Positions 463 through 15,926 of a stretch of 64,000 bases of DNA are shown here, piece by piece; position 1 is the stretch's first letter; each line of letters begins with the position of its first letter. Both the position numbers and the translations under genes were made by a program. The stretch is from Candidatus Zixiibacteriota bacterium (lineage in GTDB: Bacteria; Zixibacteria; MSB-5A5; UBA10806), in the NCBI GenBank assembly GCA_024641335.1, contig JAHEDG010000004.1, positions 1-64,000 of the forward strand, in the 5' to 3' direction. The notes beneath the pieces were generated by a model that worked only from the letters and a program-made list of their open reading frames with translations, searched no databases and had not been told where the DNA came from.

Positions 463-1575
463 CTACTGATTTTTCATATAATCAAAAACCGCTTTCCTTC
501 CGGCCCTGCTCTCGATCTCGAGCATCTTATTCAATCCGTTGGAATATACGCTGCTGCCTTCGGTCATATTGGCGGCGAAGCTGTCGTAGCCGTAATACCG
601 GAGCGCGTAATAAGCGGTCCACTGGGCAAATCCCTCCCTATCGCTAAGACTCGCGTTGTTATCGCAATTTTCCGCCTGCCAGGCATGAGTAATCTCGTGA
701 GCCAATACCCAGATCAGGTCTTTCTTGCGCAGTCCGTACCTAACATAAATGTAAAATTTATCACCGATGCGGTAAAAAAGCCCGTTAAGATCTTTATTGG
801 AGCTTTTGCCTTTATCTTGAAGAAATTTCGAATCCCGAAGAGAGTAATCTATCGGATGCTTTATGGTCATACCCATATCCCCTTCGAGAAATCTCAAGGC
901 CATATCCTTAACGGGAGTAACCGACTCCGGCTGGAATAAAGCCTCGCTCCGGCAATCGCCGCAAAGATTCAGGCCATCATCGAGTTTTGTCCCGCCCGGT
1001 CCCGATGGCGCCCCGCAATCGGCGCAGGCCTGGTATCGAGCCACACAGTTCGAACAGAATTTCCTGCTCTGATCCCCCTCGAAATAATTATAGTTCTTTA
1101 AGATTATTCCGCGGCAGCTGTAACAACGCTGCGCCCCGGCCACGCATCGATCGCACAGTCCCGAATTGCCGATCGCTTCCGATGACTTGACCGGAATCCC
1201 GCATTCCAGGCATCGCGGCGACTTACTCTCGCACGAAAGACAAATATCGATTCCCAGGTCAGGATAAGAGCTGTAACCCCCGGTAATAGCCCGGCCGCAA
1301 AGAGCGCATTTACCCAGCTTGATATAGCAGTCGGCGCAAAAACTGATCTCTCCCACCCTGATTGCTGATTTGGTCAGTTTGCCGCACCCGGAACAAACCG
1401 AATATCTCGAATAACAATCCGCGCAGTAAACGGTATTACCAGGTCCCGCATAGTATCCGCCCGACGATTCCCGGCCGCAAAGATCACAGACCACAGTAGC
1501 TCCGAACACGGCTCCGGTCAACAAAATCAGACCAATTATTATAAGATGATATCTAATTAGAATCCCGGGCTTCAT
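463..1575 (-). CDS. Secreted LIM-like zinc-finger / DA1-like metallopeptidase
   Basis: A 370-residue protein with an N-terminal signal segment (hydrophobic residues about 7-25, cleavage near VFG-AT). Residues 28-215 hold a series of CxxC...CxxC modules (for example VCDLCG, CSGCGK, CALCG, CLECG, CYSCRG, CADCG) resembling tandem LIM/treble-clef fingers. The C-terminal third has a zincin motif HEITH (H293, E294, H297) followed by AW and a second acidic site, REGFAQW (E314). That order matches the peptidase domain of the plant ubiquitin-activated protease DA1 (HEMMHAW followed by EEG). The start has GGAG upstream and lies 12 bp after the isomerase-like gene, so the two are probably cotranscribed. 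A role as an exported or periplasmic metallopeptidase is inferred; no substrate can be read from the sequence. Confidence 0.8.
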   Translation of the reverse strand: MKPGILIRYHLIIIGLILLTGAVFGATVVCDLCGRESSGGYYAGPGNTVYCADCYSRYSVCSGCGKLTKSAIRVGEISFCADCYIKLGKCALCGRAITGGYSSYPDLGIDICLSCESKSPRCLECGIPVKSSEAIGNSGLCDRCVAGAQRCYSCRGIILKNYNYFEGDQSRKFCSNCVARYQACADCGAPSGPGGTKLDDGLNLCGDCRSEALFQPESVTPVKDMALRFLEGDMGMTIKHPIDYSLRDSKFLQDKGKSSNKDLNGLFYRIGDKFYIYVRYGLRKKDLIWVLAHEITHAWQAENCDNNASLSDREGFAQWTAYYALRYYGYDSFAANMTEGSSVYSNGLNKMLEIESRAGRKAVFDYMKNQ

Positions 1576-1587
1576 GACGATCTCCGT

Positions 1588-2400
1588 TCAATCGGGGTCC
1601 GGCTCCAAAGCCAGGTTTCGGAGGTATTCCAGCGATTTCAAAAGCTCGGTCTCAGGGAATATTTCGAGCACTGTATCTACGCCAATTGTATTCAGGATAT
1701 CGATATAAGCCGTCAGATTTACCCTGCCGCTGCCCAGGGTTTTGTGATCCCCGTTATCGCTGACATCATGAAGATGGGCCAGCCGTACATGCCTGATATT
1801 ATCCTGAAAAAATTTGATTATTCTGGTTTTATCCTGCGCGGGAAGAAGCTCCGTATGTCCGATATCCCAGACCAGTCCCAAACCGTCATCCTCGGCGGTC
1901 CGGGCTATTACATCGAGAAACTGCGGCGGGACAGCGTGAGTATTCTCAAAACAGATTTTAATCCGCCCGGCGGCGTGATCCAAAGCTCTCTTGATCGAAT
2001 CCTGAAAAAACCTGACATGCATATCCGGAAGCCGCTGCTCCATAAAAACAATCTTCCTCCGGGCGCTGGAATAAAACGCCAGTCGTCCCGGATGAAAGAT
2101 ATAATATTCCCCGCCCATATCCATGGCCAGATCGAGCATTTCGATATTCCGATCGATTCCGGCCCGGCGTATGCTTTCATGGCGGTTGAGCAGAGGGATA
2201 TCCGACGGGCCGTGGAAACAAAGACCCACCCCTTTATCTTTGTAAAGCTCCGATATCGCCCGTCGTTTCTCTTCAGAGAATTTTTCAGGAAAATGCCGGG
2301 AGGAATCGAGACTGATCTGGACCAGCTCGAAACCGTACTCGAAAGCGAATTCCGGGAAACGCTCCAGACCGTTTTCCATGGCGAACCCGGCAAAACCCAA
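1588..2400 (-). CDS. Sugar phosphate isomerase/epimerase-like TIM-barrel protein
   Basis: A 270-residue protein of the xylose-isomerase-like TIM-barrel superfamily (AP endonuclease 2 fold). Visible features are the first strand LGFAGFAMENG, the CFHGPSD strand with a metal-site His, YYIFHPG, the ICFENTH strand with a Glu ligand, LVWDIGH (Asp and His), VRLAHLHD and the terminal VLEIFPE. This His/Glu/Asp/His/Glu series is the divalent-metal set of the superfamily. The actual substrate is unknown. The start is uncertain: TTG at 2398-2400 has AAGG upstream; the frame is open further back into the neighbouring gene, and an internal ATG sits at 2377-2379. It lies between the secreted protein at 2433-3707 and the DA1-like gene in one minus-strand run. 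Confidence 0.8.
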   Translation of the reverse strand: MGFAGFAMENGLERFPEFAFEYGFELVQISLDSSRHFPEKFSEEKRRAISELYKDKGVGLCFHGPSDIPLLNRHESIRRAGIDRNIEMLDLAMDMGGEYYIFHPGRLAFYSSARRKIVFMEQRLPDMHVRFFQDSIKRALDHAAGRIKICFENTHAVPPQFLDVIARTAEDDGLGLVWDIGHTELLPAQDKTRIIKFFQDNIRHVRLAHLHDVSDNGDHKTLGSGRVNLTAYIDILNTIGVDTVLEIFPETELLKSLEYLRNLALEPDPD

Positions 2401-2432: not shown

Positions 2433-3707
2433 CTATGTCTTCCTCTCCTTCTTCTTAGCCGCCGGGAAAAGGATATTATTTAATATCAATCTATAGCCGG
2501 GAGAATGTTTATGCAGCTTCAGTTCGGTAGGCGGATCACCGATCATATGCTGGTAATCCTCCGGATCGTGGCCGCCCAGAAAAGTAAATGTACCCTTGCC
2601 GTAGTTCCCGTGAATATATTTGGCTTCATTTTTACCGGGAGTTTCGGCCAGGATCGTAACGCTCTTTTTCATCAAATCTTTATTAAATGCTGTACATTGT
2701 CCCCAAAATCCATTGACAATATCTGTATGGTTTTGATTCAGCATAGTGGGTATCGGATCCCACTTGGCCGAAAAATCGAAAAGAGAAAAATAATCGGCTT
2801 CGGCGGTCAGACCCCGGCCCCCCCTGGTGGGTGACGTGTCTATATTGGAATGTTCGTAAATCGAAGGGTTGGTGACCAGATCGAAATTCTCGAATGCGTA
2901 TGTCCGGGAAAAATCCAGCTTCGATTTGTATTGAGGATCTATAGCGTCTCCGTCGAATTCCGACGGCACGATATCGGTATTCCACGCGGCCCTGGCGATA
3001 TCGTAAGTATCGGTAGCCGAACACATGGCGAATAAAAATCCCCCTTCGGCCACATACTTGTCTATCGCTTCGGCCACCATCAATTTCAACCTGGAGACCT
3101 TGGAAAAACCGAGCTCCCGAGCAGTCGTCTCATTCAGGGCCTTATCCTGTTTATACCAGATTGTCTCTCTGTAGGCGGCGAAGAATTTGCCATACTGCCC
3201 GGTGAAATCCTCGTGATGCAAATGAATCCAGTCATACTCGGAAAGCCTGCCGGCCAGAACGTCGGGATCCCAGATAACGTCAAACGGTATCTCCGCGTAT
3301 TCCAGCGCCAGGTTTACCGCGTCATCCCAGGGCTCATTCTTTCTGGATGGAGGAGCGTAAATGGCCACCTTGGGGGCTTTCTCCAGAAGAACGGTCTCCA
3401 TATTGTTATCCTCGATGGTCTTCTTTATAGATGATTCGGCAGCGCCGTCGATGATTTTAAAAGAGACCCCTTTGAGCCGGCAGGCCTCCGCCAGTTGGGG
3501 AAGATCGTCGGCTAAAAACGAACCGCCCCGATAATTCAACAACCATTCCACCGTGGTGCCGTACTGCAGACACCAATACGCGATTCCATAAGCCTTAAGA
3601 TGATCGGTCTGGGTCAAATCCATCGGTATAAGTATCTTTGACGCTTCAACCGGGGACGGATTGCCGGTCGCAATATATATTATAAGAAGAATCAGCGCTT
3701 TTCTCAT
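2433..3707 (-). CDS. Secreted protein of the family often labelled asparagine synthetase B
   Basis: A 424-residue protein with a short signal peptide (MRKALILLIIYIATG) and a C-terminal lysine-rich tail. The opening LIPMDLTQTDHLKAYGIAYW, then VEWLLNYRGGSF, is characteristic of a conserved family of Bacteroidetes-like genomes that databases often call asparagine synthetase B. I see neither the N-terminal Cys amidotransferase nor the PP-loop ATPase of real AsnB, so that name is probably a transferred error. The middle and end (EGGFLFAMCSATDTYDIA, YGKGTFTFLGGHDPEDY) look like a class I glutamine-amidotransferase/ThuA-like Rossmann fold. It is probably periplasmic with unknown function. Its TAG stop precedes the isomerase-like gene, with which it forms an operon-like run. 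Confidence 0.7.
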   Translation of the reverse strand: MRKALILLIIYIATGNPSPVEASKILIPMDLTQTDHLKAYGIAYWCLQYGTTVEWLLNYRGGSFLADDLPQLAEACRLKGVSFKIIDGAAESSIKKTIEDNNMETVLLEKAPKVAIYAPPSRKNEPWDDAVNLALEYAEIPFDVIWDPDVLAGRLSEYDWIHLHHEDFTGQYGKFFAAYRETIWYKQDKALNETTARELGFSKVSRLKLMVAEAIDKYVAEGGFLFAMCSATDTYDIARAAWNTDIVPSEFDGDAIDPQYKSKLDFSRTYAFENFDLVTNPSIYEHSNIDTSPTRGGRGLTAEADYFSLFDFSAKWDPIPTMLNQNHTDIVNGFWGQCTAFNKDLMKKSVTILAETPGKNEAKYIHGNYGKGTFTFLGGHDPEDYQHMIGDPPTELKLHKHSPGYRLILNNILFPAAKKKERKT

Positions 3708-5923: not shown

Positions 5924-6013
5924 GGCTCTAATTTAGCAGCGTCTATGACGATGTCAATTGGAATTATATTGACATAAAAATAAGAGGCTCTCATATTGTT
6001 ATCGGAGGATATT

Positions 6014-7654
6014 ATGGCTGTTTCCTTAAAAACCCCATGTACACAGGAACAGATGAGCGGGAAGATATGCTGGCTTAACGGGTTCGCCGAAGATCATATC
6101 CCCACCGAACTCCAGGACGATATCCTTATCTGCAAGGACTGTCCGACTTTCAAGGAAACCATCAATCGGGCGTTCGGCCGAAGAACCGCCGATCAAACCC
6201 TGGGCCGGACCATCGCCAGACTTCTAATGCTTGTATCGGAAAGAACTTACCGTCTTCAGGAAACAAGCATTGAACTTAAATCGAAAGTAGAAGAACTGGC
6301 CCTGATTAAGACCATTACCGAGGCTGTGGTCAAAACCACCGATATCCATAAAGCCCTGAAAATCATACTTACCGGGGTCACCTCCGGACGAGCTTTCGGT
6401 TTCAACCGCGCGGGCATATTCCTGGTCGATGAACGTCACGAATACCTCTTGGGCAAGCACGCTGTAGGGCCGAAGAACAAACAGGAAGCCCTGGAAATAT
6501 GGAATAGGCTGACCGCCACGAGCCTCAATCAGCAAATCGAAAATATCCTCGACGAATCACCGGTGGAAACAGACTATCTACATAAAAGAGTCGAAAAAAT
6601 CAAAATTCCTCTGACCGATGAGGCCAATATTTTTATTCGGGCGCTGGCCGAAGAAAATCCGCGAATCTTTCGAAAGGGGTTAATACCGTCAGAGCTCGAA
6701 AATACCATCCGAGCCTATTTTGATTTTAATGAATTTGTGATAATACCTCTCAAGGCCGAGGGTCCATCCCTGGGACTCCTGGTGGCCGATAACTACTACT
6801 CCGGCCAGCCGATCACCGAATCGACCATCGACGCTCTTTATACGCTGGCCGTGGCCTGTACCACGCTTTTGGAAAATACGCTCCTGCACAGCCAGCTTTC
6901 CTTACGATTGAAGGAACTCGAGCAGGTCAACCGGCTTTTGAGGGAAAATCAAAATTATCTTATCCGGACAGAAAGACTGGCCGATATCGGCAAGCTGGCC
7001 ACAACCGTCGCCCATGAATTCAGAACCCCGCTTGTAACCATCGGCGGATTCGCCAGGAGGATGCTTCGAACGATCAAACCCGGCAATTCCGGGGGCCGGG
7101 AACTTAAAATCATCGCCTCGGAGGTCGACCGTCTGGAAATGATTACCGGGGAACTGCTGGAATACTCCAGGCAGGTCAAGCTCGATCTTAAACCACGCAA
7201 TCTCAACGATCTTGTCCGGCATTCTCTTGATTTAATGGAAGGGCAGCTGACATCCGGCGGAATAAAACTAAAAACAAAATTCAGCCGCGATAACATATAT
7301 TCCCGTCTCGACGACCGTCGGTTCAGCCAGGTAATTTTCAATATCGTCGGCAACGCGATCGAAGCCATGAATCGCGGTGGTATGCTGACTGTCAGCACCA
7401 GGCTCGATAACGATTTCGTTATTCTGGAAATCTCTGATAATGGGTGCGGGATCGATGTTGACGATAAAAGCCAGCTGTTCAATCTCTTCTTCACCACCAA
7501 ATCCCGGGGATCCGGCTTGGGACTGCCTATTTCGAAAAAAATCGTCGAAGACCACGGAGGATACATTAAGCTGGAATCTTCAGCGGGAGAGGGAGCTTGC
7601 TTTTCGCTGTTTTTCCCCCGGTTTATTGAAACAAAGGAGAACGCCGCTGAATAG
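6014..7654 (+). CDS. GAF-domain sensor histidine kinase with an N-terminal Cys motif
   Basis: I place the start at the ATG at 6014, six bases after GGAGG, rather than the upstream TTG at 5996. The protein is 546 residues with no transmembrane segment, so it is a cytoplasmic sensor. The first 45 residues carry four cysteines (C9, C19, C41, C44; the last pair CKDC) in a pattern suited to a metal or cluster. A helix and a GAF-like domain follow (about 85-290), with a large insert, then a dimerisation helix with the phospho-acceptor motif HEFRTPL and a GHKL ATPase domain with N box (NIVGNAIEA), G1 DNGCGID, FFTTK and GSGLGLPISKKIVEDHGG. The receiver protein 57 bp downstream is its likely partner. 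The signal sensed is unknown. Confidence 0.93.
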   Translation: MAVSLKTPCTQEQMSGKICWLNGFAEDHIPTELQDDILICKDCPTFKETINRAFGRRTADQTLGRTIARLLMLVSERTYRLQETSIELKSKVEELALIKTITEAVVKTTDIHKALKIILTGVTSGRAFGFNRAGIFLVDERHEYLLGKHAVGPKNKQEALEIWNRLTATSLNQQIENILDESPVETDYLHKRVEKIKIPLTDEANIFIRALAEENPRIFRKGLIPSELENTIRAYFDFNEFVIIPLKAEGPSLGLLVADNYYSGQPITESTIDALYTLAVACTTLLENTLLHSQLSLRLKELEQVNRLLRENQNYLIRTERLADIGKLATTVAHEFRTPLVTIGGFARRMLRTIKPGNSGGRELKIIASEVDRLEMITGELLEYSRQVKLDLKPRNLNDLVRHSLDLMEGQLTSGGIKLKTKFSRDNIYSRLDDRRFSQVIFNIVGNAIEAMNRGGMLTVSTRLDNDFVILEISDNGCGIDVDDKSQLFNLFFTTKSRGSGLGLPISKKIVEDHGGYIKLESSAGEGACFSLFFPRFIETKENAAE

Positions 7655-7711
7655 AAAGACAGACAGGCGAATAATACGCAAAATGAAATCAACTGAGGAA
7701 GCGGGGGTACT

Positions 7712-8077
7712 ATGTCGTCGATATTAGTGGTGGAAGATGAACGGCATTTGCTGGATCTTTATACCAGCGAATTCCAGGATATCGGTTTCTCGGTCAGATC
7801 GGCGGTTACCGGAAAGGAAGCCATCGAGAGCGTAAAAATACAGCGGCCCGATATAGTAATTCTGGATATCATGCTGGAGGATATGGAAGGGCTGGAAGTA
7901 CTCAACGAAATTAAAGCCCTCGATAAATCGATCCCCGTTATTCTCAATTCGGCCTATTCGATTTATAAATCCGATTTCACCAGTTGGATGGCTGATGATT
8001 ATATCGTCAAATCATCAGATCTGACAGAGCTGATAGACAAAGTCAAATCCATTACCGGCATAAGCAGCTTAAATTAG
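7712..8077 (+). CDS. Single-domain response regulator (CheY-like receiver)
   Basis: A 121-residue protein consisting only of a receiver domain: VVEDE acidic pocket, phospho-acceptor Asp in VILDIML, the Ser of LNSAY at the usual Thr/Ser switch position and the Lys of IVKSS. With no output domain it probably acts by protein contact or relays phosphate from the kinase just upstream. A strong terminator 40 bp beyond closes the two-gene unit. Confidence 0.92.
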   Translation: MSSILVVEDERHLLDLYTSEFQDIGFSVRSAVTGKEAIESVKIQRPDIVILDIMLEDMEGLEVLNEIKALDKSIPVILNSAYSIYKSDFTSWMADDYIVKSSDLTELIDKVKSITGISSLN

Positions 8078-8164: not shown

Positions 8165-10093
8165 TTATTTAAGCAGAGTCATCCGCTTGGTTTCCCCGCG
8201 GCCGTCGGCGGAAATGCTATAGAAATATACGCCGCTGGCGGTCTCCTCTCCCCGGCTATCGAACCCGTTCCATATAGCCTGATGTTCGCCCGCTTCCTGA
8301 TACTCACTGATCAATGTCCTGACCAGTCTGCCGGTCAGATCATAGATCGATACTCTGACGTCCGTCGAAATCGGGAGACTGTAAGTTATCGCGGTGGTGG
8401 CGTTAAACGGATTGGGATAGTTGGCCAGGGAGAAAAATCTCTCGGGTACTCTGCCATTCTCGATATCGTCATCAATCGGCGTCTGTTGAACAGTCCCTCC
8501 GGAAATGACAAAGAGCTTTCCGCCGCCGCTGTAAAGCATCTGCTGCCCGGCGATGATATCGTCAAAACCGTCTCCATTGACGTCCTTTATCGGCCTGACC
8601 GTGAATATCTTGGCATCGGTAGGACACTCCCAAACAAGGCCTCCGGATGCGCCGTTGATGAGATAAACGCTTCCGTTGAAACATCCGGCCACTACTTCTT
8701 TGATGCCGTCGCCGGTGACATCGAACGCCCAGTATACCGCCCAGACATCGTCGCCCGTATAATATGTCCAGAGCTCCGAACCGTCGGCCCCGGAAAGAGC
8801 GGCTACGAAATTACCCCATGAGGCGACCAGAACGTCTTCGAGACCGTCGTTATTAAGATCTTCGCAAACCACTATTTTCATGATCGCGTACCCGACGGAT
8901 GTGCTCCAAAGCACCTGGCCGTTGCCGCTGGAATGACCGGAAAGAGCCATAATCATATTTCCGTTGTACCAGGTACCGGCAACCACATCATTGTAGCCGT
9001 CGTTATTGATATCGCTGATTCTATCCACAGACCAGACCGAGGCACCCGTGGGATGCGCCCAGAGCACCAACGGATAGCCCTGTGAGGCTCCGGATATGCA
9101 GTATACTCTGTCTTCGCCCGCATCGCCCCCGCCTAGTATGGCATCGGGATAGTTATCGTCGTTGACATCATCGATAGCTACTGTGGTATAAATGACATCT
9201 CCCGCCTGTTTTCTCCAGATCAGATCGCCGGTGGCGCCGTCCAGACAATAACCGGCGTTCGATTCCGAACCTGCGCCGGCAATGACTTCGGGTATATTGT
9301 CGCCGTTGAGATCCCCTAAGGTGTTAACGCTGTATATCCAGCCGGACGGAGGATGTTCGTAAGTGTCGTAGGTCCAGATAGTTTCTCCGGTGGCTCCGTC
9401 TATCGAAAAGATCGAGCGGCTGCCCCAGGCAGTGCCCAAAAGCAAATCGCCTATGCCGTTGCCGTTGATATCATCAATAGCCGTCAGGCAATCATCTCCG
9501 TAACCGCCCGAGCTGGACGGTCCTCCGACGGGTCTGGCCGACCATAAAAGCTGACCATCCAGATTCCCCGAACCGGAAAGGCAAATCAGGTTATCGCCCT
9601 GAGCCCCGGCGTCAAAAGCCTCGGCCACTACTTCGGGAAAACCATCACCATTGAGATCATCGAAAGCGGTACAGCAAACAACGTTTTCGATACATTGATA
9701 GCTCCAGATAATTTCTCCCGGCTCGAAGGCCGGAGCGCCGGCGGCTGTAGCCGGCAACGCTCGGGTGGGATTCGTCGGATCGTTGGAGGTAATCGTAAAA
9801 ACACAATCGTAGCTGATCGCGTCAATCGGGGAGAAACGGATTCTGAACAAGACCAGCGAGTTGGGGGTAATTGTCACCGGCAACGCGGGATTAATCAGGG
9901 AGAACGAGAAATCCGGACACTCCAGATCGGTAATCATCAGATTTTCATCCCCCGCGTTTCCTATCCTGAAAGTGCGCTGATTTTCTCCTCCGGCTGATAT
10001 ATAGCCGAAATGAAGAGTATCGACATCTATATTTATTTCGGGCGATGCCGCCACCACGGCAGTCAGAAGCAAAAATATTACTAAAACCTTCAT
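8165..10093 (-). CDS. Secreted FG-GAP/PQQ-type propeller protein with C-terminal sorting domain
   Basis: A 642-residue protein. Signal peptide at 1-17, then an Ig-like ASH/HYDIN-type domain (about 20-110, with ITSNDPTNP). Seven or so propeller blades follow, each with a DxNxDG calcium-type loop (DLNGDGFPEV, DINGNGIGD, DLNGDNIPEV, DVNDDNYPD, DINNDGYND, DLNNDGLED, DVNGDGFDD). The end is a sorting domain starting NYPNPFNATT and finishing RMTLLK. It is predicted to be exported through a type IX-like route and attached or released at the cell surface; the propeller may bind ligands or serve adhesion. The start has GGAGG 8 bp upstream. It heads the minus-strand series of exported proteins with the M14 gene upstream. 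Confidence 0.88.
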   Translation of the reverse strand: MKVLVIFLLLTAVVAASPEINIDVDTLHFGYISAGGENQRTFRIGNAGDENLMITDLECPDFSFSLINPALPVTITPNSLVLFRIRFSPIDAISYDCVFTITSNDPTNPTRALPATAAGAPAFEPGEIIWSYQCIENVVCCTAFDDLNGDGFPEVVAEAFDAGAQGDNLICLSGSGNLDGQLLWSARPVGGPSSSGGYGDDCLTAIDDINGNGIGDLLLGTAWGSRSIFSIDGATGETIWTYDTYEHPPSGWIYSVNTLGDLNGDNIPEVIAGAGSESNAGYCLDGATGDLIWRKQAGDVIYTTVAIDDVNDDNYPDAILGGGDAGEDRVYCISGASQGYPLVLWAHPTGASVWSVDRISDINNDGYNDVVAGTWYNGNMIMALSGHSSGNGQVLWSTSVGYAIMKIVVCEDLNNDGLEDVLVASWGNFVAALSGADGSELWTYYTGDDVWAVYWAFDVTGDGIKEVVAGCFNGSVYLINGASGGLVWECPTDAKIFTVRPIKDVNGDGFDDIIAGQQMLYSGGGKLFVISGGTVQQTPIDDDIENGRVPERFFSLANYPNPFNATTAITYSLPISTDVRVSIYDLTGRLVRTLISEYQEAGEHQAIWNGFDSRGEETASGVYFYSISADGRGETKRMTLLK

Positions 10094-10198: not shown

Positions 10199-12070
10199 CT
10201 ATTTCAAGTAAATCATCTTTTTAGCCTTTATTTCAATATCAGAAATAATCCTATAGAAGTAAATACCGCTTCTTATTTCATTTCCGTTGAGATCTTTGCC
10301 ATCCCAAACGACCTTTTCGCTATCCCCGGGTTCATCACCCCGGAAATTAATTTGTCTGACCAAACGTCCGGTTATGTCATAAATCCCCAAAGTGCCTTTT
10401 TCTCCGGCCGGCAAATTTACCGGGATAACAGTATGAGAATTGAACGGATTCGGATAATTCTGACCGAGAGAGATATATTCCGGCCTGGTCAAATCGCGGT
10501 CCATGCCAGTTTGAGCATCTATCGTAAATGACCGGGCTTGCGAATAGGGCCCCCAGCCGTTGGAGTTGCCGCCTTTTACGCGCCAGAAATAAACCGAATC
10601 GGGCAATGATGAATCTATAGCGTAAATCGTATCGGCAACGGTTGAATCGGCGACGATAAGATCGGTAAACTCGCTGTCGTAGCCAAGTTCCAAAAGATAG
10701 TAATCTGCCAGATCGGACGGATTCCAGATAAATGAGATCAAGTTATCGGCCAAAATAGTATCGGCCGGAGGATAGCTTTGTCGGGGAGCCGGAGGACGGG
10801 GATGCAGCGGACTAAGCAGTACGTCGACTTCGGTTGGCCCGGAATTTACAACTCCCACATTATAAACTGTTTTGGAGATATAGTCGTTTATAATAAAACG
10901 CAAAGTATAGCTTCCCTGGGCCAAAAGCCTACGGTAACGTCCAAATTCGGGTCGGGAAAGACGAGGATTAATATCAGCGTTGATATGCTGCAATACTTGA
11001 ACTTCAGCCTCCAACGGCTCCATAGTAACCGAATCCCTGATTACCCCGGTTATACCGGCGCCCAGGGATCGTTCCAGAAGATAATACTGGCTGGGAAGAT
11101 GAGCCGCCACAATACTGTCTACCAGGGCGGGGTCCTGAATAGTCGTATCAGAAATTTCCACGGAGAAGGCAGCTGTGCCGAAATTACCATAAAAATAAGT
11201 CTTGAAATCCCCCTTATTGACCAGAGCCCGGCGGGCGGTATAGGTACCTGTGGAGGAATCATCGGGGATAGCCTGAATTAGGGAGGCATATGATTGGCAG
11301 ATGGAACTCATCAGAACTTCGTCCGGACTCATGCCGTGACCGCCGACGTTGCCGTACCAATACCAGGGATAGTAAGCGACATTGGGCCGTCCGTAACTGG
11401 GAGAATGATAGTCCAGGGCAACCAAAGGCCTGTATTTCCACGCAAAATCGGCCATAGCCATATTCTCGGATTGGGTAAAAGGCGCGGTTCCTTTGTACAT
11501 CAATGATTCCGGAGTATTGGCGCCTATTTCGTTGTCGATACTCCAGCCGAAATCATAATTGCGGTTGTTATCTACACCGTCATGATAATCAAAAAAACCG
11601 TTATGGTCATTATCGCATTTATTCTTGCGCCATTCGGTATTACCGGCCTCGACAGTCAGATGCCCCTCCGGGTTGATGAACGGCACGCAGAATATCTCCA
11701 GGCTGTTGATATAGTCGATAATCCGGGAGTCCCCGTTATTATACTTTTCGATAATATCCTGGACAAACCACATAACCACTTCGACTCCAAGGACCTCGTC
11801 GGCATGAACCCCGCCGCAATAGAAAATCGCCGGTTCATCCTCATCGATCCCGACATTATCGGATATCTTGAACCGCAGCATCGGGATAGAATCACGGGTG
11901 GAGTAGCCCATGGTATCCAATTTACATATTTGCGAATTATCCCTTTGGATGTCCGCCAGCGTTTGAACCGCGTCGGCATACCTGGTATATCTGGCCGGAA
12001 GCTGGGCCCGACCTATGGAAAAAAGCAGCAATGAAATCAAAAGAGGCGATACAATCCTGCTAAACGGCAT
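10199..12070 (-). CDS. Secreted M14 zinc carboxypeptidase with FN3 and C-terminal sorting domain
   Basis: A 623-residue protein. Signal peptide 1-22, catalytic M14 domain about 25-330 with zinc ligands in GGVHADE (His and Glu), the substrate-site PFINPEGH and NRNYDF, the third-ligand His of LDYHSPSYG and the catalytic Glu in SVEISD. A carboxypeptidase-regulatory-like beta domain (ITGVIRDSVTMEPL) and an FN3-type domain (LISFIWNPSDLADYYLLE) follow, then a sorting domain starting NYPNPFNSHT and ending MIYLK. It should remove C-terminal residues from extracellular peptides. AAGGAG precedes the ATG. It is probably part of an extracellular protein-degradation set with the C25 proteins. Confidence 0.92.
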   Translation of the reverse strand: MPFSRIVSPLLISLLLFSIGRAQLPARYTRYADAVQTLADIQRDNSQICKLDTMGYSTRDSIPMLRFKISDNVGIDEDEPAIFYCGGVHADEVLGVEVVMWFVQDIIEKYNNGDSRIIDYINSLEIFCVPFINPEGHLTVEAGNTEWRKNKCDNDHNGFFDYHDGVDNNRNYDFGWSIDNEIGANTPESLMYKGTAPFTQSENMAMADFAWKYRPLVALDYHSPSYGRPNVAYYPWYWYGNVGGHGMSPDEVLMSSICQSYASLIQAIPDDSSTGTYTARRALVNKGDFKTYFYGNFGTAAFSVEISDTTIQDPALVDSIVAAHLPSQYYLLERSLGAGITGVIRDSVTMEPLEAEVQVLQHINADINPRLSRPEFGRYRRLLAQGSYTLRFIINDYISKTVYNVGVVNSGPTEVDVLLSPLHPRPPAPRQSYPPADTILADNLISFIWNPSDLADYYLLELGYDSEFTDLIVADSTVADTIYAIDSSLPDSVYFWRVKGGNSNGWGPYSQARSFTIDAQTGMDRDLTRPEYISLGQNYPNPFNSHTVIPVNLPAGEKGTLGIYDITGRLVRQINFRGDEPGDSEKVVWDGKDLNGNEIRSGIYFYRIISDIEIKAKKMIYLK

Positions 12071-12251: not shown

Positions 12252-15200
12252 TTACTTCAGTAATGTCATCCTTTTTGTTTCAGCCCCCTGGGGCCAAGAT
12301 AACCTGTAAAAATAAACTCCGGAGGGTATATCCCCGGCGTTCCAGATAACTTTGTGCGAACCAGCCTGTAATTCATTGTCTACCAACGTAGTAATCTTCT
12401 GGCCCAAAACATTGAAGATCTCCAGTTGGACATTCCCGGCTGACGGAATCGAAAACTCGATGGCAGCGGAAGCGTTAAATGGATTGGGATAGCTTTGAGC
12501 CAGCGAAAAACCGCGCGCCAGTTTGCTTTCATCTTCAGTACCGGTGAAATACATAGAGCCGGTAGTAAATTTGAGCGCCCTTCCGTTGGTGATATTCGCG
12601 GCCCCGGCAGCATAGTTGTTGTTGAAAATATAACCGATTCCGTCCCGTCTATCCGGAGAGCAGATGCCAGCCGACATGGAATAGGGGCTGGAAACCGAAT
12701 TGTACTGGAATAGTATCTCATTATCGCCGGTCAATGTCGGCCAGGCGGTCAGATCGAGGAAGATGATTTCGAAGGTCTGATACCTGAATACATCTTCGTC
12801 ATAAGCGTTATTCCAGCCGACAATAAACCGTCCGTTATCGACATCGTGATAATAGTAAATCCTCAATCCGCTTTGTTTGAAATCATCCCAGAACGCGGCC
12901 ACCATTCCGGGGGCGTTCTGCGGCGCCGGAATAGGAGTATTATACCAGGCGTTCCAGTCTGTCCCTCCGAGGGCCACAAAACCATTATCACAAATGGTCA
13001 ACCGCTCGAACTCCTCGCCGTAATATGATACTGTAAAGGGTAGAGTGATCAGCCTGACCTCATCATCCCCTATCTGCACATATTGCCAGTTCTGGGTATC
13101 GATCGGTATCCAGTCGAACTCCGGATGATAGGTATAGGAGGTATCGGTATTGTCGAAGCAGTAATACCCGTAGTCGTCGGGCCCGATCGGATCGTGGCTG
13201 GAAATCTCGCCAACCGGCAGACTGAATGCGGTAGTGACTACCTGAGGGCCGATTCCGGTCAACTCCAGGGTGAAGTTGATAACATGACCTACATAGATAA
13301 AGTCGTCAGCCCGCAAGATAAAGGTATTGTTTTGGTTATCGAATGACTCGCCGGGAGGACAGTTACCGAAAGCCGCCAGAGAATCCATGATCGTTACCTG
13401 GTCGTCGGATGTTCTTAGAATTCCCGCGCCGCTTTCTATTCCCAGATCCCCGATATTCGAAAGAGAAATTCTCAGCTCGCAAATTTCGCCCGGATCAATC
13501 CTTCCGTCGCCGGCATCGATAACAGTAACGCTGTCGACAGAAAATTCAGCCGCTTCCACATTCTCGTGGATAATGGCGTTCCAGCTATGTCCTTCGTTGT
13601 CGGTTATGACCAGTATCAAACCGCTCCTGGCCATATTGGCCGCGTCGGGATGAACATTCACCAGATAAGGTTGATTGCTGGTCCCCACTCCTTCCGGAGC
13701 TATATCTCCGAAACCGGCGGAGTCTCTCATGACTTCGATATACTCGTTGTTACTGGAAAGAACCGCGGTAACATTATGAGCGGTCTCCGTTAGTCCGTAA
13801 TTTTTCAGTTCCAGAGAGAGTTCTATTGTTTCCGACGGATTCAGAACGCTGTTACCGTTGCCCGACGATTCCCCACTGGCGTCATCGTCGATAATATGCG
13901 ACAGATACCCTATGGTAACGCTGTTGCTGTAATATTCCGCGGATCCTTCATAAGGAATATATCCGGGAGCTACCGCGGTTACCCGCATACTCCCTTCGGT
14001 CAGGGCAGTAGCGTCAAAATGAATCTCACCGTTGGCGGCCGTGAATCCTCCGTCATAAATTTCCTCGCCCTTCCAGATATTGACATAAGCTCTTTCGAGA
14101 GGACTGCCCAGCCCGTCGGTTACTGTCACGTCGAAATGATTCTGCCCCATTTCAACCGAATCGGGGTGATCCGCTATCATCTGCATGGGAATATCTTTCC
14201 AGCAATTCAGTTCCGGATCGCCCAAGATATTATAGCTGTTGAAATACAGCTCCACCTGTCCGTTAACTCCCCGATCGCTGGGGAACGAGTAATAGAGATT
14301 CATTTTGCCCATGAGTAATCCCTGAGCCAGAGTGGTCGATCCTTCGTAAAACCAACCCCAGTAGATACCGGCGTCGATCGAGTTGGTCCAAACTGTGTGA
14401 GCATAATGATTGGTATTGCCCATAAAACCGGCCCCGCCCTTATTGGCGGATCTGATCCAGGTTTCTCCGAAACATTCCGGAGTCCAGCCATCGTTGAAAT
14501 CGCCGGTTCCGCAGACAATAGATGTCATGATCGGATACCTGGGACCGTTGGAAAGCTGCGAAATACTCGAGGAAACGAACCGGGGATATGTCCAGCCGGT
14601 GGCGTCGCCGTAGCCTCTATAATTCACGAAAGAGACGCCGCTGTTGATGCTGGAAATTACCCGTGACGCCGGAATATTTCCACTGCTATCGAACATCGTG
14701 TCGACAAAAGTATACCCGTTGTTCATCATAAACTCGCGGCAGAGCATCTTGGTAATTCGAGGGCTGACAAAATAGCCGTCGTCTCCCCCTGATGATACAG
14801 AGGCCCGGTGATACCATTCGGTATCCCCCATGTAGGGAGTTCTTTCATAGGCGAACAACTTGGCAATATACTGATTCAGGTGGGTGACGCTGTAAACCGA
14901 GATTCGTCCTATGAGGACTTCGGGGAAATAGTCATTGCCTTCGATAAATGTGTAATAGTTATCCGATTCGATATCTCCCGAACCGTGCGGATTGGAATAA
15001 TTGCGGGTGGGGATACCGTAGTTGTTAGGCATGGTCACGTCACCCACAATGGCGATGTAATCCGGTTTCACGTCACAGGTATCGAATAACGCGACTATAT
15101 AATTTTTAATATTGACATAAGTCGGATTAGAACCGATATCGCCTTTGGCGATCAAACGGACGCTAAAGCCTCTGGTCTTGTTCCATTCGATCAGCGGATC

Positions 15201-15926
15201 AAGATACTCGAGATAAGCGTCGGGGTAGATTATCCAGTAGGCTCCCCGGGTAATCTCGATCGGATCGAAAACCAGCGGATTATCGAGGATAGATTTGTAT
15301 ATGGGGGAGAAAGCTTCGGAGATCTTACCGTCGTAACGGGTCATTTTGGAGCCCGAATGAGTTATTTCTATCTCTATATTGTCGTAAACCAGGAGAGTCG
15401 AATTTTCAGGGTCGTACCTTACCGGCGATATCGTTACCGAATACAATCTTAAATCTCTCATTATCCCGGCGTTCTCACCGACGACCAGATTAGCCTGAAA
15501 ATTCATGGAAAAATCGTTGTCGGAACTGCGGTAGGAAGCTAAAGCCTCATCGTCCGCCGGCGCCAGATTGAATCTTTCGAATTCCTTATAACTCGAACCG
15601 AGGATCTTAACTGTCGGCTCGGAATCGAACGGGACGGCGATAATCCGGGTAATGGTCGGCAGAAGAACGTCTTGCGGCCCGAGGTAAGCTCCTCTCGACA
15701 TTTCGAAATCGTCCGGAAGAGATACCGAATATTCGATTTCGCCGTTAACAGCGTTCTGCTCATATTTCAATTCGGCCAAATCTATGCTCAGTATTGTGCG
15801 GCCTGGTTCCTGAACAGACACCGTTACGCCGGAATTTCCAGCATTGAGAATAAGGGCCTCTTTTTCGGCTCCCAGAGCCGTCGAGCATAAAAAGAACAAA
15901 CCTGCCGCTAATGCGCGAAAATTCAT
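12252..15926 (-). CDS. Large secreted gingipain-like C25 protein lacking the canonical catalytic His
   Basis: 1224 residues: signal peptide 1-19; gingipain-type propeptide about 25-210; C25 fold from about 225 (ARG-AYWIIYPDAYLEYL, DYIAIVGDVTMP) to 590; Ig-like domain; two CARDB-type modules (each with SGNGNSVLNPSETIELSLELKNYG-like seeds); a nidogen-like beta domain beginning GPDDYGYYCFDNTDTSY; sorting tail SYPNPFNASA...RMTLLK. The nucleophile region is kept (VCGTGDF, C472), but the His expected in YxGHG is Tyr (NYRGYGDATGW, Y439), 33 residues upstream. The paralogue at 20253 shares this layout and has Trp there. It is therefore either an inactive protease homologue or uses another His, perhaps in NHYAHT. 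AGGAGG precedes the ATG. Confidence 0.9.
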   Translation of the reverse strand: MNFRALAAGLFFLCSTALGAEKEALILNAGNSGVTVSVQEPGRTILSIDLAELKYEQNAVNGEIEYSVSLPDDFEMSRGAYLGPQDVLLPTITRIIAVPFDSEPTVKILGSSYKEFERFNLAPADDEALASYRSSDNDFSMNFQANLVVGENAGIMRDLRLYSVTISPVRYDPENSTLLVYDNIEIEITHSGSKMTRYDGKISEAFSPIYKSILDNPLVFDPIEITRGAYWIIYPDAYLEYLDPLIEWNKTRGFSVRLIAKGDIGSNPTYVNIKNYIVALFDTCDVKPDYIAIVGDVTMPNNYGIPTRNYSNPHGSGDIESDNYYTFIEGNDYFPEVLIGRISVYSVTHLNQYIAKLFAYERTPYMGDTEWYHRASVSSGGDDGYFVSPRITKMLCREFMMNNGYTFVDTMFDSSGNIPASRVISSINSGVSFVNYRGYGDATGWTYPRFVSSSISQLSNGPRYPIMTSIVCGTGDFNDGWTPECFGETWIRSANKGGAGFMGNTNHYAHTVWTNSIDAGIYWGWFYEGSTTLAQGLLMGKMNLYYSFPSDRGVNGQVELYFNSYNILGDPELNCWKDIPMQMIADHPDSVEMGQNHFDVTVTDGLGSPLERAYVNIWKGEEIYDGGFTAANGEIHFDATALTEGSMRVTAVAPGYIPYEGSAEYYSNSVTIGYLSHIIDDDASGESSGNGNSVLNPSETIELSLELKNYGLTETAHNVTAVLSSNNEYIEVMRDSAGFGDIAPEGVGTSNQPYLVNVHPDAANMARSGLILVITDNEGHSWNAIIHENVEAAEFSVDSVTVIDAGDGRIDPGEICELRISLSNIGDLGIESGAGILRTSDDQVTIMDSLAAFGNCPPGESFDNQNNTFILRADDFIYVGHVINFTLELTGIGPQVVTTAFSLPVGEISSHDPIGPDDYGYYCFDNTDTSYTYHPEFDWIPIDTQNWQYVQIGDDEVRLITLPFTVSYYGEEFERLTICDNGFVALGGTDWNAWYNTPIPAPQNAPGMVAAFWDDFKQSGLRIYYYHDVDNGRFIVGWNNAYDEDVFRYQTFEIIFLDLTAWPTLTGDNEILFQYNSVSSPYSMSAGICSPDRRDGIGYIFNNNYAAGAANITNGRALKFTTGSMYFTGTEDESKLARGFSLAQSYPNPFNASAAIEFSIPSAGNVQLEIFNVLGQKITTLVDNELQAGSHKVIWNAGDIPSGVYFYRLSWPQGAETKRMTLLK

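Follow-up and report, generated by a model that had tools for sequence, protein, structure and literature searches.

The open reading frame at positions 463-1575 of the window, the window being the whole stretch of 64,000 nucleotides analysed (contig JAHEDG010000004.1 of a Candidatus Zixiibacteriota bacterium), encodes a protein that, judged from profile comparisons, is a distant relative of the plant DA1 peptidases, which control organ and seed size. The protein, in which an array of zinc modules precedes a gluzincin-type peptidase domain, is a real and well-conserved variant of the DA1-like kind, while the claim made for it with respect to the origin of DA1 is weaker than the original prediction had it.

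The repeated CxxC modules and the HEITHAW (residues 293-299) and REGFAQW (residues 313-319) motifs on which that prediction was based are all present in the frame, together with a hydrophobic N-terminus. Twelve CxxC pairs make up six modules, with at least 24 cysteines in all, and the gene is single-copy in its genome. The same layout is kept in relatives at 35-53% identity within the phylum and at 26-31% in other phyla, and it is therefore not a product of chance. The coordinates of the features are listed in Table 1.

Table 1. Features of the array-type peptidase gene and of its neighbours in the window (rows are those of the 84-row alignment used for the tree)
Feature	Positions	Strand	Basis or remark
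Whole open reading frame, 370 aa + stop	463..1575	minus	ATG start; zinc-module array and gluzincin-type peptidase, probably exported
N-terminal hydrophobic segment, residues 1-25, probable signal peptide	1501..1575	minus	helix 4-21 in model
Zinc module 1, residues 30-54, CxxC-x17-CxxC	1414..1488	minus	spacing; strand-strand-helix in model
Zinc module 2, residues 61-83, CxxC-x15-CxxC	1327..1395	minus	spacing; model
Zinc module 3, residues 90-115, CxxC-x18-CxxC	1231..1308	minus	spacing; model
Zinc module 4, residues 122-144, CxxC-x15-CxxC	1144..1212	minus	spacing; model
Zinc module 5, residues 151-177, CxxC-x19-CxxC, first half of the LIM-like unit common to DA1	1045..1125	minus	alignment
Zinc module 6, residues 184-208, CxxC-x17-CxxC	952..1026	minus	four Cys in 84/84 rows
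Peptidase domain, residues 212-370	466..942	minus	DA1 profile match; M1 aminopeptidase fold, Z 11.8
HEITH, zinc-binding and catalytic motif (H293, E294, H297)	685..699	minus	H, E, H in 84/84 rows
E314, expected third zinc ligand of HExxH-x16-E-G (putative role)	634..636	minus	84/84 rows
Y344, candidate catalytic tyrosine of YxxG (putative role)	544..546	minus	83/84 rows, remaining row a gap
PIG-L deacetylase, cut by contig start	1-421	minus	top NCBIfam match BshB1, 111.7 bits on the fragment (cut-off 182.5)
TIM-barrel protein (PF01261; CbiR-like below cut-off), directly upstream gene	1588..2400	minus	9/9 neighbourhoods
424-aa predicted exported protein, conserved neighbour before the TIM barrel	2433..3707	minus	8/9 neighbourhoods

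The zinc modules

The LIM identity originally proposed for the modules is not borne out. In the LIM consensus a linker of two residues separates the two zinc modules, whereas all five inter-module linkers of the window protein are exactly six residues long, and this spacing rules out canonical LIM domains. In addition, the module ligands are all cysteines, with no histidine among them, and the protein has no match to PF00412 at E <= 0.1. Six-residue linkers are found in 159 of 164 cases among the 52 array proteins. The LIM pattern C..C-x-H..[CH]..C..C is present in 28 of the 86 distinct related ORFs and in none of the 52 array proteins. On PF00412, single scans of two LIM-bearing relatives give 61 and 71 bits, and some array proteins of other phyla also reach its cut-off of 22.9 (L036, 23.5 bits; L037, 29.6 bits).

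In the predicted structure, modules 1-4 each consist of a CxxC knuckle, a hairpin and then a helix bearing the second CxxC, which is a treble-clef-like order. The best Foldseek match of the fingers is to the LIM domains of PINCH (E 8e-5), with query-normalised TM-scores of at most 0.29 among the matches listed. What the modules would share with the LIM domains of proteins such as PINCH and paxillin is a predicted treble-clef-like build and the arrangement in pairs. On this model, the fingers of the window protein are treble-clef-like modules at even spacing, presumably occupied by zinc, and differ from canonical LIM domains.

In 32 of the 36 proteins that have at least four modules, a module is more like those of its own parity than those of the other parity, and the number of modules is 2, 4 or 6 in 49 of the 52 array proteins, the other three having odd counts. 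Therefore, it appears from the sequences that the unit of array growth is a pair of modules. Ten CxxC pairs are counted in L098 and in L043, whose frame begins at the edge of a contig, and eleven in L009. The last pair is the best conserved between proteins (mean score 62, versus 29 and 22 for the others), and of the three two-module units, 1 and 2 are closer to one another than to unit 3. By alignment, the last pair (modules 5 and 6) is the counterpart of the LIM-like unit of DA1. Module 6 has all four cysteines in every row of the alignment, including that of DA1; in module 5, histidine is present at two ligand positions in 19 and 31 of the 84 rows, and the first cysteine pair is unaligned in the DA1 row.

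The peptidase domain

The H, E, H, W, E and G residues of the peptidase motifs are present in all 84 rows, and the spacing HExxH-x16-EG is kept in 82 of them, the other two having x17. The AlphaFold2 model of the window protein has a pLDDT of 89 and a pTM of 0.67. Residues 212-370 of the model align to PepN of E. coli (2dq6) with a Z score of 11.8 and an rmsd of 2.8 over 144 residues, and the Z scores against M1 aminopeptidases (PepN and leukotriene A4 hydrolase) range from 10 to 11.8. As modelled, the domain belongs among the gluzincin-like folds and has the fold of the M1 catalytic domain, although a shared fold does not amount to membership and does not make the protein an M1 enzyme.

Relationship to plant DA1

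The window protein scores 15.6 bits on PF12315 (DA1 family), which is under the Pfam cut-off of 25, and slightly higher, 16.6 bits, on DUF6782, which is also under the cut-off (27). The PF12315 cut-off is narrowly passed by the relatives L031 (25.3 bits) and L037 (25.4 bits), and a match at E <= 0.01 is found in 32 of the 35 aligned relatives. Among 58 genomes of relatives, PF12315 has a match in 14, over the cut-off in 11; among 14 control genomes it has none.

The Arabidopsis DA1 reference used here is a sequence not copied from a database record, which is considered good enough for use because it scores 322 bits over the full PF12315 profile. Alignment A1, made of 17 array-type proteins, matches this sequence in hhalign (98.5%, E 2.1e-15) over a range spanning module 6 and the peptidase. 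With the peptidase taken alone, the array group matches the LIM group at E 1.2e-32 (0.095-0.88 in five column-shuffled controls) and the DA1 reference at E 3.6e-11 (97.2%), and the ten Zixibacteria array proteins match the LIM group at E 9e-22. The assignment to the DA1-type peptidases is therefore supported by the matches of the relatives to PF12315 and to DA1 and by the comparison of the peptidase alone. The lack of a significant DA1 profile match, which would have refuted the original prediction, is thus not what is seen, though the window protein alone stays below threshold.

The protein shares with the plant DA1/DAR proteins the HExxH-x16-EG and YxxG motifs and the LIM-like zinc unit directly before the peptidase. 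It differs from them in having no canonical N-terminal LIM domain, in having three zinc units in place of a LIM domain and a LIM-like unit, and in bearing the N-terminal hydrophobic segment. Nor is a ubiquitin-interacting motif matched in the window protein, in contrast to two in the DA1 reference, one of which is over the cut-off. The second cysteine of module 6 is taken to be residue 274 in the DA1 reference, and C187 of the window protein aligns with it. A search for known counterparts gave no NCBIfam match, no phmmer match in PDB sequences and no match in plasmids or phages, and no solved DA1 structure is present among the best 60 of 133 PDB sequence profile matches or among the fold matches listed.

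According to Dong 2017 (PMC5322733), DA1(C274Y) is neither ubiquitylated nor active on the substrate BB; the loss of activity may be indirect, since ubiquitylation is lost as well. The same paper, citing Burroughs 2011, states that the LIM-like region of DA1 resembles Roseiflexus proteins. The bacterial kinship of DA1 has thus already been published (PMC5322733), and the array branch looks like a variant of known relatives. These relatives, the bacterial LIM-DA1 proteins (from other Zixibacteria families, Chloroflexota and, as mentioned in Dong 2017 with reference to Burroughs 2011, Roseiflexus), have the same peptidase and C-terminal zinc unit as the window protein, and those of Zixibacteria also have the hydrophobic N-terminus. 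In contrast, they carry a canonical LIM domain with histidine ligands and fall in a separate clade (see below). In the literature searched, which is without most subscription journals, no paper on an exported array-type DA1 relative and no biochemical data on bacterial members were found; the accessible part of PMC3482391 makes no mention of LIM or DA1.

Phylogeny and the origin of DA1

The tree was built from the last zinc unit and the peptidase, in an alignment of 226 columns and 84 rows (83 bacterial sequences and the DA1 reference). L050, L133 and L134, which have no CxxC modules, were left out of the 86 distinct related ORFs. The tree separates a group of 28 LIM proteins, three shortened LIM relatives and plant DA1 (support 100/99) from the 52 array proteins, the window protein among them. 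Within the former group, the closest placement of DA1 is beside four LIM proteins that came from the search of Chloroflexota (100/94). When DA1 is constrained to the ten Zixibacteria array proteins, the tree is 43 log units worse and is rejected (p-AU 0.022), whereas the AU test does not reject (p-AU 0.28) a constraint with all array proteins, which is equivalent to placing DA1 on the branch connecting them to the LIM clade. The tree should be taken as a guide and not as proof, with the DA1 reference as a single sequence on a long branch, few phyla sampled and the bootstrap unsettled.

The window protein as a direct ancestor of DA1 is rejected by the tree and the AU test. It is extremely improbable that the lineage of the window, or one very near it, was the bacterial source of plant DA1: the C-terminal unit and the peptidase are held in common, and the position on the connecting branch would allow it, but the grouping of DA1 inside the LIM clade and the outcome of the Zixibacteria constraint stand against it. 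Because that constraint is rejected, the relevance of the window protein to the origin of DA1, which the original prediction had raised, is indirect only; what stands is a link through the LIM-bearing bacterial proteins, and not one through the array clade. The question of origin is nevertheless sharpened, since DA1 goes with LIM-bearing bacterial proteins, the nearest being signal-less ones of Chloroflexota, and not with the exported arrays.

Distribution and probable export signal

Relatives found by the pattern scan are in records of Candidatus Zixiibacteriota, Omnitrophota, CSSED10-310, Anaerolineae, Gemmatimonadetes and unclassified bacteria. In the phylum of the window, alignment A2 has a match at E <= 0.001 in 57 of 132 genomes; the weak matches (E above about 1e-6) take in the HExxH region or a few fingers only and probably represent other proteins. 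For the phylum to which the Anaerolineae record belongs, matches, weak ones included, are found in 64 of 301 genomes, and the corresponding numbers are 13 of 14 for the group of the Omnitrophota records and 3 of 5 for that of the Gemmatimonadetes record. The Gemmatimonadota-type L044, L045 and L047 have four modules and a long open frame upstream, and their start sites are unsure. One LIM-type gene (G113:C72:13643-14810) appears to be divided between two open frames, 266 and 146 aa long, which may reflect gene breakage or a fault in the assembly.

The putative export signal was assessed in 83 sequences from the hydropathy of the 60 residues that precede the first module, L043 being left unjudged because it is cut by the contig. 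A hydrophobic N-terminal segment is present in all 52 judged sequences outside Chloroflexota and in none of the 30 Chloroflexota sequences (L042 and L095-L123), nine of which have fewer than 15 residues ahead of their first module. Presence of the signal thus goes with lineage, and the arrays are probably located on both sides of the membrane. Since a hydrophobic N-terminus is usual in the family outside Chloroflexota, the exported array of the window protein is not a lone oddity.

Gene neighbourhood

Nine array-type loci of Zixibacteria, including the window, were compared, a tenth genome (G004) being left out. The TIM-barrel and peptidase genes often overlap by four bases, and they are likely to be co-transcribed, from which a shared pathway does not follow. 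The CbiR-like match of the TIM barrel, which is below cut-off, points to no clear pathway. The 424-aa protein is present in 115 of 129 genomes from the phylum, its full-length matches being about 56-79% identical, and by this count it may be regarded as a core protein of the phylum. It has no Pfam or NCBIfam match and no clear match in PDB or plasmid sequences, and its predicted fold has a pLDDT of 35. In loci of genomes where no array-type peptidase was found (L175-L186), the TIM barrel adjoins the 424-aa gene in one of twelve. Neither protein is present in any of 15 LIM-type or Chloroflexota neighbourhoods, and five Omnitrophota-type regions and one CSSED10-310 region contain none of the conserved neighbours of Zixibacteria.

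Proposed mechanism and alternatives

The protein is probably an exported DA1-like zinc metallopeptidase, in which module 6 is needed for activity and modules 1-5 serve as a rod for substrates or partners. The N-terminal signal would send the enzyme across the inner membrane, and the HExxH motif and the downstream Glu of the C-terminal gluzincin-type domain would bind the catalytic zinc. Module 6, lying directly before the peptidase, may be needed for the active state in the way of its counterpart in plant DA1. Modules 1-5 would form a rod of mononuclear treble-clef-like units, which may recognise or position protein substrates or partners outside the cytoplasm and so lead to selective cleavage. 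The trigger used in plants, ubiquitin, is not expected here, because no ubiquitin-interacting motif was matched. The equivalent of DA1 Cys274 is kept in bacterial proteins without such motifs, and module 6 may accordingly have a direct effect on the peptidase. Bacterial relatives with the same module beside the same peptidase, and without the ubiquitin part, may thus serve as small models for the coupling between a LIM-like unit and a peptidase.

A further-reaching proposal, regarded as doubtful, is that the array clade is a separate, unnamed family, sister to all LIM-DA1 proteins, whose array has grown in steps of two modules (2, 4, 6) and which, where exported, serves outside the cytoplasm as a gate that senses zinc or redox state; the peptidase would then be turned off when module 6 loses its metal, as in DA1 C274Y. 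It is also unlikely that the CxxC pairs of the mature exported protein form disulfides or a thiol-redox switch in place of zinc sites, with the array as a redox sensor that controls the peptidase. The high number of cysteines in a probably exported protein would fit such a switch, and so would the adjacency of the family f1 genes to a PIG-L deacetylase gene whose top NCBIfam match is a bacillithiol enzyme, but that match, to a gene truncated at the contig end, does not reach the cut-off, and the deacetylase gene adjoins the peptidase gene in just four of the nine neighbourhoods. Moreover, the modules keep treble-clef-like spacing and shape, the histidines at the two ligand positions of module 5 suit a metal and not disulfides, and the signal-less members of Chloroflexota retain the same modules.

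The matches of the predicted fold to M1 enzymes, together with a score of 13.7 bits on PF01433 (M1 aminopeptidase), might be taken to indicate an M1-aminopeptidase-like enzyme with fingers, its likeness to DA1 being confined to the shared gluzincin motif. This is distinctly improbable, as the score is far below the cut-off of 27.7, the motif spacing is x16 and not the x18 of M1, and the M1 accessory domains are absent. The kinship to DA1 also takes in module 6 and the residues that lead from this module to the motif. The match between the LIM group and DA1 extends as far as the YxxG end, and column-shuffled controls give nothing. Loss of activity is known for some families with zinc peptidase folds, and the protein has no known substrate, so that a non-catalytic scaffold whose peptidase fold only binds partners may be considered; with the catalytic positions all kept in the 84 rows, this is very unlikely. 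The reading as an active, exported DA1-like peptidase is therefore preferred.

Other features of the window

Three large ORFs on the minus strand (8165-10093, 10199-12070 and 12252-15926) all match one L153 ORF over about 100 residues, and two of the three fall in one similarity cluster. On the plus strand, positions 5996-8077 encode a histidine kinase and, after it, a single-domain response regulator, an order that is kept in three relatives of the same family.
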